Origin: Xestospongia bergquistia
Taxonomy: Eukaryota; Porifera; Demospongiae; Haplosclerida; Petrosiidae
Length of the DNA stretch: 64,000 nt
Assembly: GCA_963965975.1 (NCBI GenBank)
Contig: OZ014424.1
Span: forward strand, 4,154,001 to 4,218,000
Direction of reading: 5' to 3'
Shown one piece after another: positions 14,684 through 39,100 of the stretch. A program made the translations under genes and the position numbers. A model generated the notes under the pieces. It searched no databases, was not told the DNA's origin, and saw only the letters and a program-made list of their open reading frames with translations. How positions within the stretch are numbered: position 1 is the stretch's first letter; every line of letters starts with the position of its first letter.

Positions 14684-15781
14684 TTACTCTTGATGTTTTG
14701 ATTTCTTAAAAGTCTCCAATATTTGAATGACATCATGATGACCATTAGAACGTGCTGTCATTAGAGGTGTCCAGCCATGTTTATCAGCTAGGTTAGGGTC
14801 TGCACCATTGTTAAGTAGTGTAGAAACGATAGAAGAATGACCGTTCTGGCTAGCAACAAGAATTGCTGTTTCTCCTCTTTTGTTCTGGGTATTTATAAGA
14901 ACTCTCCACTTTAATAATATCTTAATGATGTAACTATTACCATTAGCACTTGCTGTCATGAGAGGTGTCCAGCCATATTTGTTAGCTAGGTTGGGGTCAG
15001 CTCCATTTTTAAGTAGGGTAGAAATGACAGAAGAGCGATTGTTCTGGCTGGCAATGAAAATTGCTGTCTCTCCAATTTTGTTTTGGGTATTTATAGGAAC
15101 CTTCCATTCTAGCAATATCATAATTACATCATCATGACCATTAGCACTTGCTGTCATAAGAGGTGTCCAGCCATAGTCATTAGCTATATTAGGATCTGCT
15201 CCATTGTGAAGTAGATATGAGACGACTGAGAAGTGACCATTCTGGCTAGCAATGAAAATTGGTGTTTCTTTTTTTCCATGGGTAATTGGATACTTCATTC
15301 ATTGCAATATTTCCTCATGATCATTTGAATTGCCTGGCATGAAGTTATGAAACAACAAATATACAACTATTACAGCTATCATTATTGCTACTATCTTTGT
15401 ACGTGTTCGAACTTTTTGAACAATTTTCAACCATTGATAAAATGTTTCTTGCATGGAAGGTATCAGTTGTGAATCATTATTTCTGGTCAATTCTTTATCT
15501 AAAATAGAGGCATATTTTTGTCTAATATGCTCAGCAACTGCAGGATTGACTTTTTCTACTGCATCAGCTACAGTATGCCATGAATGTACAGTGTTCCTTT
15601 CGTCTAGCCATTTTTGTAAAATATGCATTTTACGCTGTGATATTCCTTGGAATTGTTGCCTGATATCCTCAATAACATACCAAGGTACATTGAGATACAT
15701 AGCTAGTTGATCCCATTCAACTACTTCTCTCAGTTCATCACAGAGTAAATTAAGAGTGGGTGGATATAGATTATCTGACAT
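14684..15781 (-). pseudogene. Death domain - TM - ankyrin gene interrupted by an in-frame TGA (copy A)
   Basis: One reading frame runs from ATG at 15781 (MSDN, matching the intact paralogue) to a stop at 14684, broken only by TGA at 15301-15299. The first part (160 aa) has a Death domain (LNLLCDELREVVEW to the AEHIRQKY helix) and a transmembrane helix (about IVAIMIAVIVVYLLF). After the TGA, about six ankyrin repeats of 33 aa follow immediately in the same frame. Aligned to the intact gene at 21717-24065, the TGA sits where LLKW or LLEW has its Trp (TGG), so one G-to-A change explains it. It may be a pseudogene, two separate ORFs, or a strain allele. An in-frame upstream ATG at 15835 also exists. 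No frameshifts are visible. Confidence 0.75.
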
Positions 15782-21716: not shown

Positions 21717-24065
21717 TCACTTGAACATTCGAATGATATCACCATGACCGTTTTGATGAGCTATCATAAGAGGTGTTATGCCATCATGGTTAGCTAGGGT
21801 TGGGTCTGCTCCATGGCGAAGTAAAGTAGAGACAATGGACGAGTGACCACTCTTACTAGCAATGTAAATTGCAGTTGCTCCCTCTTTGTTTTGGATATTT
21901 ATTGGAACTTTCCATGTTAGTAATACATCAATAACATTATCATGACCATTGGAACTGGCTTTTATAAGAGGTGTCCAGCCATATTTGTCAGCTAGGTTAG
22001 GATCTGCTCCATTGCTAAGTAAGGTAGAAACAATAGAAGAATGGCCATTCCAACTGGCAGAATATATTGCTGTTACTCCCTCTTTGTTTTGGGTATTTAT
22101 AAGTGCTTTCCATTTCAGTAATAATTTGACAACATCATCATGGCCATTCTGACTGGCTATCATAAGAGGTGTCCAGCCATCATTGTTAACTAGGTTTGGG
22201 TTTGCACCATTGTTTAACAACTTAGACACAGCAGAAAAGTGGCCGTTAAAACTAGCAGCAGATATTGCTGTCATTCCATCTTTTCTTTGAGTATTTATCG
22301 GAACTTTCAATCCTAGTAATACATCAACAACGTTATCATGACCATTGGAACTGGCTATTATAAGAGGTGTCCAACCATTATTGTTAGCTAGGTTAGGGTC
22401 TGCCCCATTGCTAAGTAAGATAGAAACAATAGAAGTGTGGCCTTTCTTGCTAGCAGAATATATTGCTGTTACTCCCTCCTTGTTTTGGGTATTTAGTAGT
22501 ACATTCCATTTCAGTAATAATTTGATGACATCATCATGACCATTGGAACTGGCTATCATAAGAGGTGTCCAGCCATTATTGTTAACTAGGTTTGGGTTTG
22601 CACCATTGTTTAACAAATTAGACACAACAGAAAAGTGACCGTTAAAACTAGCAACAAATATTGCTGTTGTTCCATCTTTTCTTTGAGTGTTTATTGGAAC
22701 TTTCCATGTTAGTAATACATCAACAACATAATCATGACCATTGGTACTGGCTATTATAAGAGGTGTCCAATCATTATTGTCAGCTAGGTTAGGGTCTGCC
22801 CCATTGCTAAGTAAGATAGAAACAATAGAAGTGTGACCTTTCTTGCTAGCAGAATATATTGCTGTTACTCCCTCTTTGTTTTGGGTATTTAGTAGTACAT
22901 TCCATTTCAGTAATAATTTGACGACATCATCATGACCATTGGAACTGGCTATCATAAGAGGTGTCCAACCATCATTGTTAACTAGGTTTGGGTTTGCACC
23001 ATTGTTTAACAGCTTAGACACAACAGAAAAGTGGCCGTTAAAACTAGCAACAAATATTGCTGTTGTTCCATCTTTTCTTTTGGTATTTATTGGAACTTTC
23101 CATGTTAGTAATACATCAATAACATTATCATGACCATTGGAACTGGCTTTTATAAGAGGTGTCCAGCCATATTTGTCAGCTAGGTTAGGATCTGCTCCAT
23201 TGCTAAGTAAGGTAGAAACAATAGAAGAATGGCCATTCCAACTGGCAGAATATATTGCTGTTACTCCCTCTTTGTTTTGGGTATTTATAAGTGCTTTCCA
23301 TTTCAGTAATAATTTGACAACATCATCATGGCCATTCTGACTAGCTATCATAAGAGGTGTCCAACCACCATTGTTAGCTAGGTTAGAGTCTGCCCCATTG
23401 CTAAGTAAGGTAGAAACAATAGAAGAGTGGCCATTCTCGCTAGCAGAATAAATTGCTGTTATTCCCTGTTTGTTTTGTGTGTTTATTGGAACATTCCGCT
23501 TAAGCAATAATTCAACAACATCATTATGTCCCTCCTGACTGGCTACCATAAGAGGTGTCCAGCCATCACTGTCAGCTAAGTTAGGGTCTGCCTGATTGCC
23601 AAAGCATATGTAAAAGAAAATTGCAAGCAATAAACAAGCAACTGAGATAACAAGCACTGCCAATAGCAGTTTTTTCAAGGTGGTAGGCCATTTCTTTTTT
23701 GTGGCATTAGCTTGTGGTGTTGAGCTATTATTTGCTATACTTACACTACCTTGTTGGGAAGTTGAAGGTATTTCATCTAGAATACTAGCATACTTTTGTC
23801 TAAGTTTTTCAGTTACTGCAGAATTGAGATTTTCTACTGCATCAGCTACAGTATGCCATGAATGTACAGTGTTGCTTTGTTCTAGCCATTTTTGTAAAAT
23901 ATGCATTTTGCGCTCTGGAATGTCTCCATCTGGGTGACATGCTTTGGCATTCTTAATTTCAGCAGTAGGTATATTGAGATATACAGCCAATTGTTCCCAT
24001 TCAGACACTTCTTTCAGTTCTTTACATAATAGATTGAGAGTAGGTGGACTGTGATTGTCAGACAT
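21717..24065 (-). CDS. Death domain - transmembrane - ankyrin repeat protein (intact, single exon; copy C)
   Basis: This is one uninterrupted ORF of 782 aa from the MSDN start at 24065; an upstream in-frame ATG at 24101 would give 794 aa. MSDN is preferred because copy A shares it. Residues of about 10-95 form a Death domain (TLNLLCKELKEVSEWEQL, HSWHTVADAVE). Next comes a Ser/Thr/Asn-rich linker, then a basic residue cluster and a transmembrane helix (LLLAVLVISVACLLLAIFF). About 19 ankyrin repeats of 33 aa follow (GADPNLADNNGWTPLMIAS-type, often with NTQNKEGVTAIYSAS). Repeats alternate in two kinds, giving a 66-aa higher-order unit. Two blocks 1188 bp apart are nearly identical over about 250 bp. 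The topology suggests a membrane-anchored adaptor linking Death-domain signalling to ankyrin-bound partners. The function is unknown and the topology is inferred. Confidence 0.85.
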   Translation of the reverse strand: MSDNHSPPTLNLLCKELKEVSEWEQLAVYLNIPTAEIKNAKACHPDGDIPERKMHILQKWLEQSNTVHSWHTVADAVENLNSAVTEKLRQKYASILDEIPSTSQQGSVSIANNSSTPQANATKKKWPTTLKKLLLAVLVISVACLLLAIFFYICFGNQADPNLADSDGWTPLMVASQEGHNDVVELLLKRNVPINTQNKQGITAIYSASENGHSSIVSTLLSNGADSNLANNGGWTPLMIASQNGHDDVVKLLLKWKALINTQNKEGVTAIYSASWNGHSSIVSTLLSNGADPNLADKYGWTPLIKASSNGHDNVIDVLLTWKVPINTKRKDGTTAIFVASFNGHFSVVSKLLNNGANPNLVNNDGWTPLMIASSNGHDDVVKLLLKWNVLLNTQNKEGVTAIYSASKKGHTSIVSILLSNGADPNLADNNDWTPLIIASTNGHDYVVDVLLTWKVPINTQRKDGTTAIFVASFNGHFSVVSNLLNNGANPNLVNNNGWTPLMIASSNGHDDVIKLLLKWNVLLNTQNKEGVTAIYSASKKGHTSIVSILLSNGADPNLANNNGWTPLIIASSNGHDNVVDVLLGLKVPINTQRKDGMTAISAASFNGHFSAVSKLLNNGANPNLVNNDGWTPLMIASQNGHDDVVKLLLKWKALINTQNKEGVTAIYSASWNGHSSIVSTLLSNGADPNLADKYGWTPLIKASSNGHDNVIDVLLTWKVPINIQNKEGATAIYIASKSGHSSIVSTLLRHGADPTLANHDGITPLMIAHQNGHGDIIRMFK

Positions 24066-33117: not shown

Positions 33118-33164
<47 letters not shown>

Positions 33165-36100
33165 GAGAGGGAGGGAGAGAGAGAAAGAGAGAGAGGGAGG
33201 GAGAAAGGGAGGGAGAGAGGGAGAGGGAGAGGGAGAGGGAGAGAGAGAGAGAGAAGAGAGAGAGGGGGGGGAGAGGGAGGGAGAGAGAGAAAGAGAGAGA
33301 GAGGGAGGGAGAAAGGGAGGGAGAGAGGGAGAGGGAGAGAGAGAGAGAGAGAAGAGAGAGAGCATCATTTAAAATCTGTGATATTTCATTACCTTTCCTT
33401 TCCCCTTAGATCTGGCCTGTAGGGGAGGGTCTTCAAATTCTCCAGTCTTTGCACAGTAAGCCTTCAATAAAAGACCACATCAAACATGTCTAGACACTAC
33501 ACCCATTAACCTCTAAAAAGTAAAACCTATCAGGTCCTCCCAGGAAGTAGGAGTCAATATCCCCTTCAATATCTTCCCCATGTTGTACAGTACATTTACC
33601 ACATACAATATTAGCCTCTACAGTAGTCTCTATAAAAACATCAGTTAATATAAGCAAAGTACTTCAAAGTAACACACCTTCATTACTCCAATAGACAAGA
33701 TTAAGATCAGCTTGATCTGTAGCATTGTCTTCTTTGTGTGTGTCTTGTGGTCTGCATGTAGACATGTATAACAATAACATGTATACAAGTACAATAATAA
33801 TTACATGCATACATGTACAATAATTACATGTAAACAAGTATGATAATAACATGAAAACATGTACAATAATAACATGTACACAAGTACAACAATTACCTAT
33901 ATTATGTAATATTCATGTACATGTTCAAACTCATTACCTGTAGAACATTCTCACTTTAAGGTAAACCTTAACATCATCAATAAGTTTACTAATAGAGGAC
34001 TTGGTAAATATCTCCAATATTTGACCTGTAAATTATAATAGATGGTAAGTTCATTAATTATTTTACTAACCTATTTGAAATGGAGGTGAAGAATCAGAGT
34101 TACTGCCCTTGACATAATCTGACATTTTACGATATTTTTCAGGATACATTTCTTCATCAATCTAATAATGAAAACATTAGTCATATCAACATATGGTATA
34201 TAACACTCCATGTATGTGTGTGTGTGAATAAACAGTACATTTACAGGCTATAATATAGGAGTCTCTCCTTAATTAATGGCACTAATAAACTATTTAACAA
34301 GAATTAGTGATTATTCAACTTACAGATTCATCTTTTTTTGGTTGTTTCTTTGATAATGTTGTAGTTTTTTTAACAGAAAAGGTGTAAGTGTCTGGTAATA
34401 AACAGATACAATCTCCAACAGAATATGTTTGATAGTCAAGAACAAAAGAGCTACAAAGAGTTACAATCACAATATAATGCATCCACTATACATTACATAC
34501 TTAAAGAGAGTATGTTTAGAATTGTTTGAGGACTCGATTTTATCTTTTGCAACAGCAATTTTGCTCTACGTTAAAAAATGTAACAAGTATCATTAAAATA
34601 ATGTCTACTGTACAATGTACATCTAGTCATAATCTAATCATATCTAATCATAATCTATTCATATCTAGTCATAACCTAATCATATCTAGTCATGATCTAA
34701 TCATATCTAGTCATGATCTAATCATGATCAAGGATTTAGTCATTATACAAAAGGAAGCAACCTACTAATTCAGCTGTCTTCCTTCGATCACAAGATGGAC
34801 AGAATATTCTTTGTCCTTCCTTTGATTGAAAATCACGACAATTGCTAGGGATGTCTTCAAAACGAGCTGTTGTAACATCATACCATTTCTGACAAAAGAA
34901 TGTCCTGCCATCTTCCTCTATTTCTTCCTCCTCAGTGACTTCCTCACCTCCCATCATAAACCAGTTATTAGGAGGATATTGAAACTCCACCTGTGTGTAA
35001 TCAGTAGTTGATTGAATAATACACTGAAGTATTAGTATGGGACTAGAACAAGTGTCCTCAATATAGAGGTTGCATAATACACTAAAGTATTAGTATGGGA
35101 CTAGAACAAGTGTCCTCAATATAGAGGTTGCATAATACATTAAAGTATTAGTATGGGACTAGAACAAGTGTCCTCAATATAGAGGTTGCATAATACACTA
35201 AAGTATTAGTATGGGACTAGAACAAGTGTCCTCAATATAGAGGTTGCATAATACATTAAAGTATTAGTATGGGACTAGAACAAGTGTCCTCAATATAGAG
35301 GTTGCATAATACACTAAAGTATTAGTATGGGACTAGAACAAGTGTCCTATTATAAGAGGGAGTACTAGTTTGTAATAACTAACTTGAACTTTATCTATAA
35401 TAGCTCCCAATGGATTATCATCACATTCATCCAGGAGAAACAGTTCTCGAGGATCACCAGTCTCTCCGAGGGCTGTCTCACTAGATCGACTAGATTGGAA
35501 AATATATAAAACAACTTTAAAAAACATAAATTTATATTAAAGTTTAAAGTCAATTTCTTACAATTAAGAAGAGCAGCTCCATTAGTGAGTTCAGTATTAT
35601 GTTAACTTTTAAACTCACATGATTGTGAATGATTACATGTACACATGTCAATGTACATCAATTATAAAACATTAATACATCTACATGTACACTCACTATC
35701 CATGGTGCATCTATACCACCATTAATAATATATCTACACTTACTTAAACCACTATCCATGGTACATCTATACCACCATTAATAATATATCTACACTTACT
35801 TAAACCACTATCCATGGTACATTTATACCACCATTAACAATATATCTACACTTACTTAAACCACTATCCATGGTACATTTATACCACCATTAATAATATA
35901 TCTACACTTACTTAAACCACTATATCCATGGTACATTTATACCACCATTAATAATATATCTACACTTACTTAAACCACTATCCATGGTACATTTATACCA
36001 CCATTAACAATATATCTACACTTACTTAAACCACTATCCATGGTACATTTATACCACCATTAATAATATATCTACACTTACTTAAACCACTATCCATGGT

Positions 36101-39100
36101 ACATTTATACCACCATTAATAATATATCTACACTTACTTAAACCACTATATCCATGGTACATTTATACCACCATTAATAATATATCTACACTTACTTAAA
36201 CCACCATCCATGGAACATTTTCTTTCCATTATTATCTTCCCACATTGACATAATACGTACTATATAGAGTGGATCATCAGGTACTTCAGGACACACTGAC
36301 ACTACATCATGTACCAACACCTGTTAGAATACAAGGAGACGATTAAAATAAATGAAATAAAACTATAAAACCTCTACATTTCATATTTTAATTTTTAAAT
36401 CATATTTTGTTAGTATGGATTATACAACAACTACATCAGTCATTTCTAATTCAAAATTGTTTCCATATAAAGTATTGCTATTGACATATGTCATTGTGTA
36501 TTACCTTTTCTTTGTTAATAAGGACTTGTGAGTAATACTTGCGATGTCCCTCAATCCAATCTGGTTCACCTATCCACTCAACTTTGGTCTAAAACAATAT
36601 ACAACTAATTACTACAATAATAGCAGGAACTTACCTTTATCTTCTTCTCTTCTTTAATTTTCTTACTTGGAGATCTAATGTCTTTCTACAAGAAGAAATA
36701 TCAATGTAAGTACATATTTATAAACCCCATCTATCACAACCTCTAACTCTTAACTGTAATATCCAATTATAATGTGCATATTTACAATATGATGTACTTA
36801 CTGCATTTTTCAAGTCAGGGTCACTATCCATCTCCTCATTTTCATCAGCTGTTTGTATAGCCATATAAGGACAACTAAATAATGACAAAATAATGAATAC
36901 AATATATTATATAGTGTATCTACAGTAAGGGTATTCAATGTCAACTAAATGACAATTCTTTGATACCAACTCTTTTTTAGGTTTAGGGTCTAAAGTCTAG
37001 GGAGAAAGAAAGAGCTTGAGTTGTCAATTTGGGAGCTGATATAGTGGGAGCTGGTTTAATGTAAGTTGACACTTTGACAGTTGATATTCTGAGACTAAAT
37101 CATACAATAAAGATACTGTGTGCTAATAAACAATAAAGACTACTCCATTGTTAAAAGCTGATACATTCATACTTAACTGGTTAACTATATGTTACGGAAC
37201 TTACCGTCTGTGGACACAAGCTTGTTTTGATCGTCCAGTTCCTCCAAATTTAATCATATCTTTACAAGCATTACATTTCCCACAATCAGTTAGTTGACAT
37301 ACTTCACAAACACCACAACGACGTCGTCTAGGAGCTGAATTAGACGACTTGCCGTCAATCTGGTTCTTGAAAAACATCTCAAAAATATTACGAACCAATG
37401 GAGTTGTAGTAGCCTATTACAAGATATCAACAAAACAGAAATCAGTGATATGAATACCTTAGTATGTTTGGATGCCTTCACTTTGGGCTGCTTAGCTGAC
37501 CTCCTGGCAGATTTCCTACAAAGGAGTAATATGCCAATAATCAATTTCCACATATGCTAATAATATATAGCTAAGTTCTTGCTTCCAATAATTATTTACA
37601 TGAACACTGTTTATAATTCACAGAGCAATAGAAAGGTCACTATGAGAACAACACATCAGAACAAATAATCTTAATCAAAAAAAATAGAACTATCAACAAC
37701 AGCAAGGATAGAAATAGCTAGAAATATGTTCTATTGTATTTGACATGTAAGTACTGTTAATAGAGACAATTATAACTATCTAAGAAAAACAACTACAGAT
37801 AAAGTAATGTTAAAATGAGCAGATTTATCAATTTGTCCCCCTATGTGTACGTGTACTTATGTAACTTGTGTTACATCAATTGTGAGAGCAACATTAACTT
37901 ATTATGTATTAAAGCTATTATAAATAGTGTAAGAACTAACTGTTTTCCTAATGTGACTCCTGATAGTTTTATTAAAGCTCTCATACAAGGAGATACTAGT
38001 AATAGATCTTCATCTTCATCACTATATTGATCATAACTTTCAACCTAAATAAAGTAGAACCCTGTCATTATGAATATGATAATAATTAATGAAATGATTT
38101 TTGACTTGTTCTTAATGTAATCAACTAAACCAAGAAAATAAACAGAGACACTTAATGGAAACTACATGCTTTCAAATATTATTATATAGTAGACTAATCA
38201 AAGGTAAGAGAAAAAGATTATATAACTATTTTACAATCTTGCCTACAGTTGCCAAATTTCATCACATCCATAGTATTATGTAATACCTGCTCCACAATGA
38301 ACTGTGCATGTCTTAGGAGAGCATCCTCAGTAAAGGAGGTACAGCCAATAGATTGAGGAGGGACTGTAGTCTCTATTTTATTTAATAGATCCTCATAAGT
38401 AGCTACAGGAAACTCTTCAAGATACTCTATTACAATCTATAGAACCAGAATAAAATGCATGTACAAACATTCATACACTAATTAATATGTGCGTATATAC
38501 ATGTACTGTGTATGTGTAGTGACTATACTTTACTAAGGTAGATTTTCTCTTGTACAGAGGCCATTATTTCACTGTAGTCTTGAGAGGATTCCATTAATAT
38601 ATACTCAGCATAAGCTGAAGTGAACAAAATCATATTAAGACATTAACACTGTTTATAATTAGTAATTACCTGTAGTAAATCCAACAAGAGCTTTTTCTCC
38701 TCCATCAAAACCAGCAATCCACCATGAATTGATAGGACCTAGTTCTTTAGTAGGTATACCATCTACATACAATGTATAAATTATTAAAATAAAAATGAAC
38801 TGTACAATTTTAATAAATGTACATTAAAGTATACAAAATCTGAAATCGTGTATACAAGTCATCAAAGTAGGTGGGGTTTTGATCCAAAGCTCCACCCATT
38901 TTAAAATCAGTATTGCACTGGTATGATATACCATAGCAGTAACACACACTCACTACATAACACAGTTACTAGTTGAGCATGCTGACTAAGCTATGGATTA
39001 CTTGTATACATGTTGTTACCTGAAGGGTCAGGGTTTTCGTCGTAAATTGGTTTGACAGTTCCACTGAAAAAAAGCTCGACATTTTTTTCAACCAGCCCAG

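Follow-up and report, generated by a model that had tools for sequence, protein, structure and literature searches.

The window analysed here, a stretch of 64,000 nucleotides from the sponge Xestospongia bergquistia (contig OZ014424.1 of assembly GCA_963965975.1, positions 4,154,001 to 4,218,000 of the forward strand), carries on its minus strand a DNMT1 gene in which a 56-bp minisatellite lies across the border between a coding exon of the BAH1 domain and the intron that follows it. The array contains a row of identical 5' splice sites (donors), the first of which closes the exon, while the others, termed decoys in the following, lie in the intron. The features of the locus are given below, together with the evidence on which each is based:

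36196..36320, minus strand: DNMT1 coding exon (BAH1) of 125 nt, acceptor CAG at 36321-36323 (DNMT1 match across the join)
35490..36195, minus strand: host intron of 706 nt, phase 2 (joins tested; gapless DNMT1 alignment)
35384..35489, minus strand: next DNMT1 coding exon, acceptor TCCAATCTAG before TCGATC, with a predicted 3' end (DNMT1 match)
35694..36220, minus strand: 56-bp minisatellite of 9.3 copies, 25 nt across the exon/intron border (Tandem Repeats Finder (TRF); alignment)
36190..36195, minus strand: true donor GTAAGT, the first of nine (word search; DNMT1 alignment across the join)
36132..36137, minus strand: decoy donor 1, after a 58-bp step (word search)
36076..36081, minus strand: decoy donor 2 (word search)
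36020..36025, minus strand: decoy donor 3 (word search)
35964..35969, minus strand: decoy donor 4 (word search)
35906..35911, minus strand: decoy donor 5, after a 58-bp step (word search)
35850..35855, minus strand: decoy donor 6 (word search)
35794..35799, minus strand: decoy donor 7 (word search)
35738..35743, minus strand: decoy donor 8 (word search)
about 35666..35723, minus strand: degenerate tenth unit, GTAAGT lost, with GTGAGT starting at 35697 (sequence comparison)

Joining 36195 to 35489 yields a gapless match of 76 residues to the BAH1 domain of human DNMT1 that crosses the junction (E 3.4e-20), and the joined product also matches the Pfam family BAH (1.7e-16). Moreover, the next exon and the exon after that each match DNMT1 individually. 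Because the gapless match runs across the join, it is the donor at 36195 that preserves the conserved protein. An initial annotation, made by a model from the letters of this DNA, had placed the array in the BAH1 domain and ahead of the catalytic part of DNMT1, which these matches bear out.

The array was detected by TRF with 96% matches between copies. In the whole 64-kb window, the word GTAAGTGTAG has nine occurrences, all of them on the minus strand, namely at 36195 (the true donor), 36137, 36081, 36025, 35969, 35911, 35855, 35799 and 35743, with successive steps of 58, 56, 56, 56, 58, 56, 56 and 56 bp. The eight tandem decoys reported in the initial annotation are thus present. The nine donors had been described there as nearly equal; the equality stands but the qualifier does not, since positions -9 to +17 are identical in all nine, which makes the donors equal under any local donor score. 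The interval that had been assigned to the array (35695-36320) indeed holds it but also takes in the whole upstream exon. The degenerate tenth unit may contribute a weak additional donor with its GTGAGT at 35697.

The unit is composed of 25 nt of exon and 31 nt of intron, and the exon part is contiguous with GTAAGTGTAG. Compared without gaps with the last 25 nt of the exon, five decoys show two differences, as had been claimed for the unit in general, but the last decoy (35743) shows three and the two 58-bp units, where an additional TA shifts the register, show twelve. A weaker, gapped likeness between exon and unit extends to about 36 nt. Local alignment of the exon with two joined units gave a score of 19, whereas the maximum over 2000 doublet shuffles was 13; the unit is therefore related to its flanking exon, which is not the case for an ordinary intronic satellite. 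In other words, the repeated unit joins the last part of a coding exon to the first part of its own intron, and a donor equal to the true one is found at nine sites and is missing from the degenerate tenth unit. The earlier view that the array is no random satellite, and arose by tandem duplication across the exon/intron border, is well supported by these data. The unit variants are interspersed, with TA insertions in units 2 and 6 and A-to-G changes in units 4 and 7, a pattern that is expected from repeated expansion. Furthermore, the exon keeps the residues MFHGWWF, aligned to MFHAHWF of human DNMT1, whereas the decoys, read in the old frame, have in common TAC in place of TTC and TAG in place of TGG. 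Since these shared changes are absent from the conserved exon, the exon at 36196-36320 is probably the parent of the repeat and the intron copies probably descend from one founder.

Translation from the exon into the intron reads ...FHGWWFK, ending with a lysine, and then TAA for each of the eight decoys and also for 35697, which confirms the prediction that any decoy adds a stop at once. The distance from this stop to the junction would be 54-448 nt for the eight decoys and 494 nt for 35697, and the exons would measure 183 to 577 nt instead of the 125 nt obtained with the true donor.

Related objects have been described in other organisms. According to passages in a published report, the human CBS gene carries a 31-bp variable number tandem repeat (VNTR), c.1444_1467+7(16_21), whose name specifies 24 nt of exon, 7 nt of intron and 16-21 copies (PMC2630376). 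As its unit spans the border by name, each CBS copy should carry a donor. By analogy, the DNMT1 array appears to be the same kind of object, as in both cases the unit crosses an exon/intron border; however, the CBS repeat is polymorphic, whereas the DNMT1 array is known from one genome, has fewer copies and lies in another gene and organism. The same passages describe the human CBS allele 844ins68, a duplication of 68 bp of an intron/exon junction that creates two close splice sites, one of which is strongly favoured (PMC2630376). There, too, a junction is duplicated and splicing strongly prefers one site, but the junction is that of intron 7 and exon 8 and there is only one extra copy. It has also been stated in another article that tandem duplication at intron borders can make new introns, and that one intron of fission yeast stretches over four copies of a duplicated 24-bp segment (PMC4974935). 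The Rogers model, with the potato RNA-dependent RNA polymerase gene and the fission yeast 24-bp AGGT repeats, resembles the DNMT1 case in that short tandem duplications touch splice signals; however, duplication creates a new intron there, whereas at DNMT1 the duplicates only enlarge an existing one. Intron gain by this route was thus rejected for DNMT1, because the acceptor, TCCAATCTAG before 35489, is separated from the array by about 200 bases and does not belong to the unit.

The architecture recurs at other loci of this genome. When its 146 Mb were searched for three GTAAGT separated by 12-40 bases, 347 matches were obtained. The places among the matches listed fall on contigs 1-3 and form 26 clusters, 20 of which were fetched after being chosen before their flanks had been seen; of the remaining six, five are near-copies or neighbours of fetched ones and one does not look tandem. 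Reading the sequence upstream of the first donor revealed that 6 of the 20 fetched clusters start at the donor of a coding exon that is supported by homology, and a second fetch of ten stretches, three of them from the family of L050, added a glycerol kinase gene:

L032: enkurin; the first-donor join gives a family match across the junction (6.5e-20)
L036: SPT5 C-terminal domain; 2.2e-5 and 1e-4, just below the Pfam cut-off, upstream exon only
L040: NUP160; family match across the first-donor join (5.1e-8)
L042: protein kinase; Pfam match across the first-donor join (3.5e-12)
L048: septin (septin-6); match across the first-donor join (1.6e-8), based on PDB sequences
L050: AMP-binding enzyme; Pfam match across the first-donor join (3e-15)
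L059 (second fetch): glycerol kinase; match across the first-donor join (1.8e-12), based on PDB sequences

Thus, the family match crosses the junction in five of the six genes of the first fetch, SPT5 having been tested for its upstream exon only. Pfam identifies L042 and L050 as protein kinase and AMP-binding enzyme, respectively; we take them to be a MAP2K and a bubblegum-type enzyme. As at DNMT1, the first donor of each of these arrays closes a conserved coding exon. The border arrays of this genome (L032, L036, L040, L042, L048, L050, L052-L054 and L059) differ from the DNMT1 array in their periods of 19-65 bp, and the exon share of the unit ranged from 0 to 28 nt in the six arrays measured. 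In the glycerol kinase gene (L059; G000:C1:9585300-9586900, minus strand), the 65-bp unit comprises a complete short intron together with 8 nt from the joined exon edges and is repeated about six times. To splice such a gene correctly, every inner donor and acceptor has to be passed over.

No exon was found at the first donor in nine clusters of the first fetch (L033, L035, L038, L043, L044, L045, L047, L049 and L051) and in five stretches of the second (L055, L056, L058, L060 and L061). L034 and L039 look coding, but the searches gave no convincing match: L034 had none, and L039 had no PDB match and two weak Pfam matches only (0.067 and 0.077). L039 is presumably BET1-like and L034 presumably similar to a TBC protein. 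The exon at L046 matched no Pfam family. L037 was rejected because no tandem array was obtained. L041 (G000:C2:260440-266700, minus strand) was rejected as a splice array, as it is by frame and by eye a 36-bp coding repeat; GTAAGT stands in frame there as Val-Ser within an open 12-residue repeat. L055 (G000:C14:4949500-4950900) contains 18 GTAAGT in steps of about 42 bp, preceded by AG or AT, and no upstream open frame of at least 20 residues. L057 (G000:C1:28163900-28165300, minus strand), which had been picked for a unit resembling a micro-exon with its intron, shows by eye about seven in-frame acidic micro-exons of 24 nt with introns of 45 nt in a 69-bp unit, an arrangement that reads as tandem exon duplication at micro-exon scale.

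A natural series of array lengths is provided by four AMP-binding paralogues (L050, L052, L053 and L054) that lie at about 2.62-2.65 Mb of contig C3 and carry a donor array in the same intron. They possess 4, 8, 13 and 4 GTAAGT, respectively, the fourth of L054 lying off the 37-bp step, in introns of 168, 422, 681 and 135 nt. The exon end is nearly constant among them (WDQFMELGN...CCASLIYT, with few substitutions), and the first-donor join reads on into SGTVGNPKGVMLSHD; the comparison of L052 and L053 covers the first two exons and the beginning of the third. Array length thus shifts much, with 4 to 13 donors, whereas the exon remains nearly constant.

If the decoys were either needed or harmful, the donor columns of the arrays should differ in variability from the other columns. 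We counted each variant once per array (event test) in 30 arrays, of which 24 could be scored, 13 as border and 11 as non-border arrays; L032, L033 and L048 had too few units, L056 and L060 had no array and L057 was put in neither group. In the eight border arrays with a minimum of five copies, 15 donor-column events were observed and 15.3 expected, and the five non-border arrays of that size gave 18 against 17.7 expected. All 13 border arrays gave 21 against 22.9 expected, with the border label taking in L041, which was subsequently classified as a coding repeat, and L034, L039 and L046, which are unverified; all 11 non-border arrays gave 27 against 27.0. The homology-supported arrays of at least five copies (DNMT1, L040, L052, L053 and L059, of which L052 and L053 are related by descent rather than independent) showed 15 donor events and 46 others, with about 12 donor events expected, which does not alter the outcome. 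Counting cells in place of events had suggested that donors are conserved in border arrays, as 4 of 576 donor cells and 64 of 2092 other cells varied there, compared with 39 of 522 and 97 of 1282 in non-border arrays (12 arrays summed), but this signal vanished once each variant was counted once per array. Since donor columns vary as often as others, the 24 scored arrays give no indication that decoys are either retained or removed by selection.

Taken together, these observations favour, with a probability of roughly 0.8, a neutral minisatellite of the exon/intron border, in which splicing would occur at the first donor and the decoys would be tolerated. A segment comprising about 25-36 nt of the DNMT1 exon and about 20-31 nt of the intron would have been duplicated in tandem, would have gained a few changes early and would then have grown to about nine copies by unequal exchange or slippage. 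Which splice site is actually used, and why the first donor would win, is predicted here from sequence: splicing probably takes the exon-side, acceptor-distal donor 36195 by a combination of exon definition and transcription order, the donor that closes a 125-nt exon presumably being recognised before, or better than, those that would make exons of 183-577 nt. The eight identical decoys would then be tolerated, drift neutrally and lengthen the intron. A strong preference for the first donor had been offered in the initial annotation as one of two outcomes; it agrees with the conservation of the protein and recurs in the junction matches of six other genes.

Several points weigh against this reading. 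Among equal donors, the acceptor-proximal (intron-proximal) one has often been favoured in model substrates in older in vitro work. If this default held at DNMT1, the last decoy would win and the protein would be truncated; the conservation of the protein argues otherwise. The choice among competing donors is context-dependent and, according to passages in a published report, may be shifted in either direction by SRSF1 or hnRNP A1 (PMC5585400). Together, these protein effects and an acceptor-proximal default could lead to the use of decoys. DNMT1 taken alone shows no variation in 81 donor-column cells, compared with 11 of 442 other cells (0 versus 6 events), and this invariance could hint at constraint, although the pooled event test shows no excess conservation. 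Moreover, the search required three intact donors, so that decayed arrays are under-sampled, and the glycerol kinase and septin genes matched no Pfam family and are supported by PDB sequences. Finally, the strongest decoys are possibly avoided: arrays of three AGGTAAGT (AG|GTAAGT) gave 3+2 = 5 matches at three places, as opposed to 516+654 = 1170 for the reversed word, the one control word used.

These word controls also bear on the number of arrays. One GTAAGT search gave 642+842 matches and its reversed-word control 637+934, which is similar, and the search for three GTAAGT gave 180+167 matches compared with 1283+2077 for the reversed word; all such counts, including those for AGGTAAGT, are of matches and not of arrays, with one control word each, and those of the control word for AGGTAAGT may be dominated by a few satellites. 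As the reversed-word counts are similar or higher, they lend no support to the idea that GTAAGT is specially array-prone. In addition, the window contains 54 GTAAGT outside the array, of which about eight look by eye like DNMT1 donors. Because many single GTAAGT are ordinary donors, the 6 of 20 clusters that start at a coding exon may represent no excess over expectation.

Other explanations of the DNMT1 array ascribe a function to it. Some transcripts might use decoys, gain the TAA and be degraded, with array length setting the dose of DNMT1. The identity of the decoys with the true donor would suit such a rheostat, as would the early stops 54-448 nt ahead of the decoy junctions, a stop well before a junction being expected to trigger nonsense-mediated decay. 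Moreover, the human CBS 31-bp VNTR is said, going by the title of the work of Lievers from 2001, to be associated with reduced CBS activity. However, the architecture recurs at unrelated genes, the donor columns are no more conserved than other columns, and paralogue arrays vary widely in size (4-13 donors) while their exon is nearly unchanged. We therefore regard a dosage rheostat, which the initial annotation had raised as a role for array length, as unsupported and unlikely.

A somewhat smaller chance is given to the idea that the row of donors is kept as an aid to splicing, serving as extra U1 sites that help exon definition or suppress premature polyadenylation. All nine DNMT1 donors are intact, and several border arrays vary little in their donor columns when cells are counted; however, nothing of this was left in the event test (15 observed, 15.3 expected), decayed donors exist in L052 and L053, and the tenth DNMT1 unit has lost its GTAAGT. 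A misassembled or collapsed copy number, a common hazard given that tandem arrays are error-prone, is very improbable, as the two TA insertions, the two A-to-G changes and the degenerate last copy give the array an internal order, and similar arrays exist at many other places. Should the copy number be wrong, the unit that spans the border would still be real.

Beyond the neutral reading of the DNMT1 array, we tentatively suggest, as a generalisation that is somewhat more likely to fail than to hold, that the genome harbours a whole class of donor minisatellites. Such arrays of 3 to about 16 copies would start at the authentic donors of many conserved genes and would be free in length because of a nearly absolute rule by which the first donor after the exon wins, even where the competing sites are locally identical. 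If this is true, the class would be a natural copy-number series on how the spliceosome chooses among equal donors. This choice is usually studied with built constructs; DNMT1 offers nine identical natural donors, and further natural cases are found in the enkurin, SPT5, NUP160, protein kinase, septin, AMP-binding enzyme (four paralogues) and glycerol kinase genes. These arrays also call for caution, since a striking array of splice decoys at a famous gene turned out to be one of several of its kind in a minisatellite-rich genome.

The window contains further repeats. Judged by eye, no second exon-border array was present among the other listed arrays in about 30-41 kb of the window. A 58-bp minisatellite at 35012-35348 (5.8 copies, 97% matches) takes up the greater part of the following DNMT1 intron and does not reach the exons. 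A GA/CT microsatellite of about 240 bp (33120-33362) lies just upstream, on the minus strand, of another exon, which we take to carry a catalytic motif, and may act as an oversized pyrimidine tract. Long tandem arrays of 198/396 bp at 21760-23599 and 14726-15269 are presumably coding repeats of the ankyrin type.

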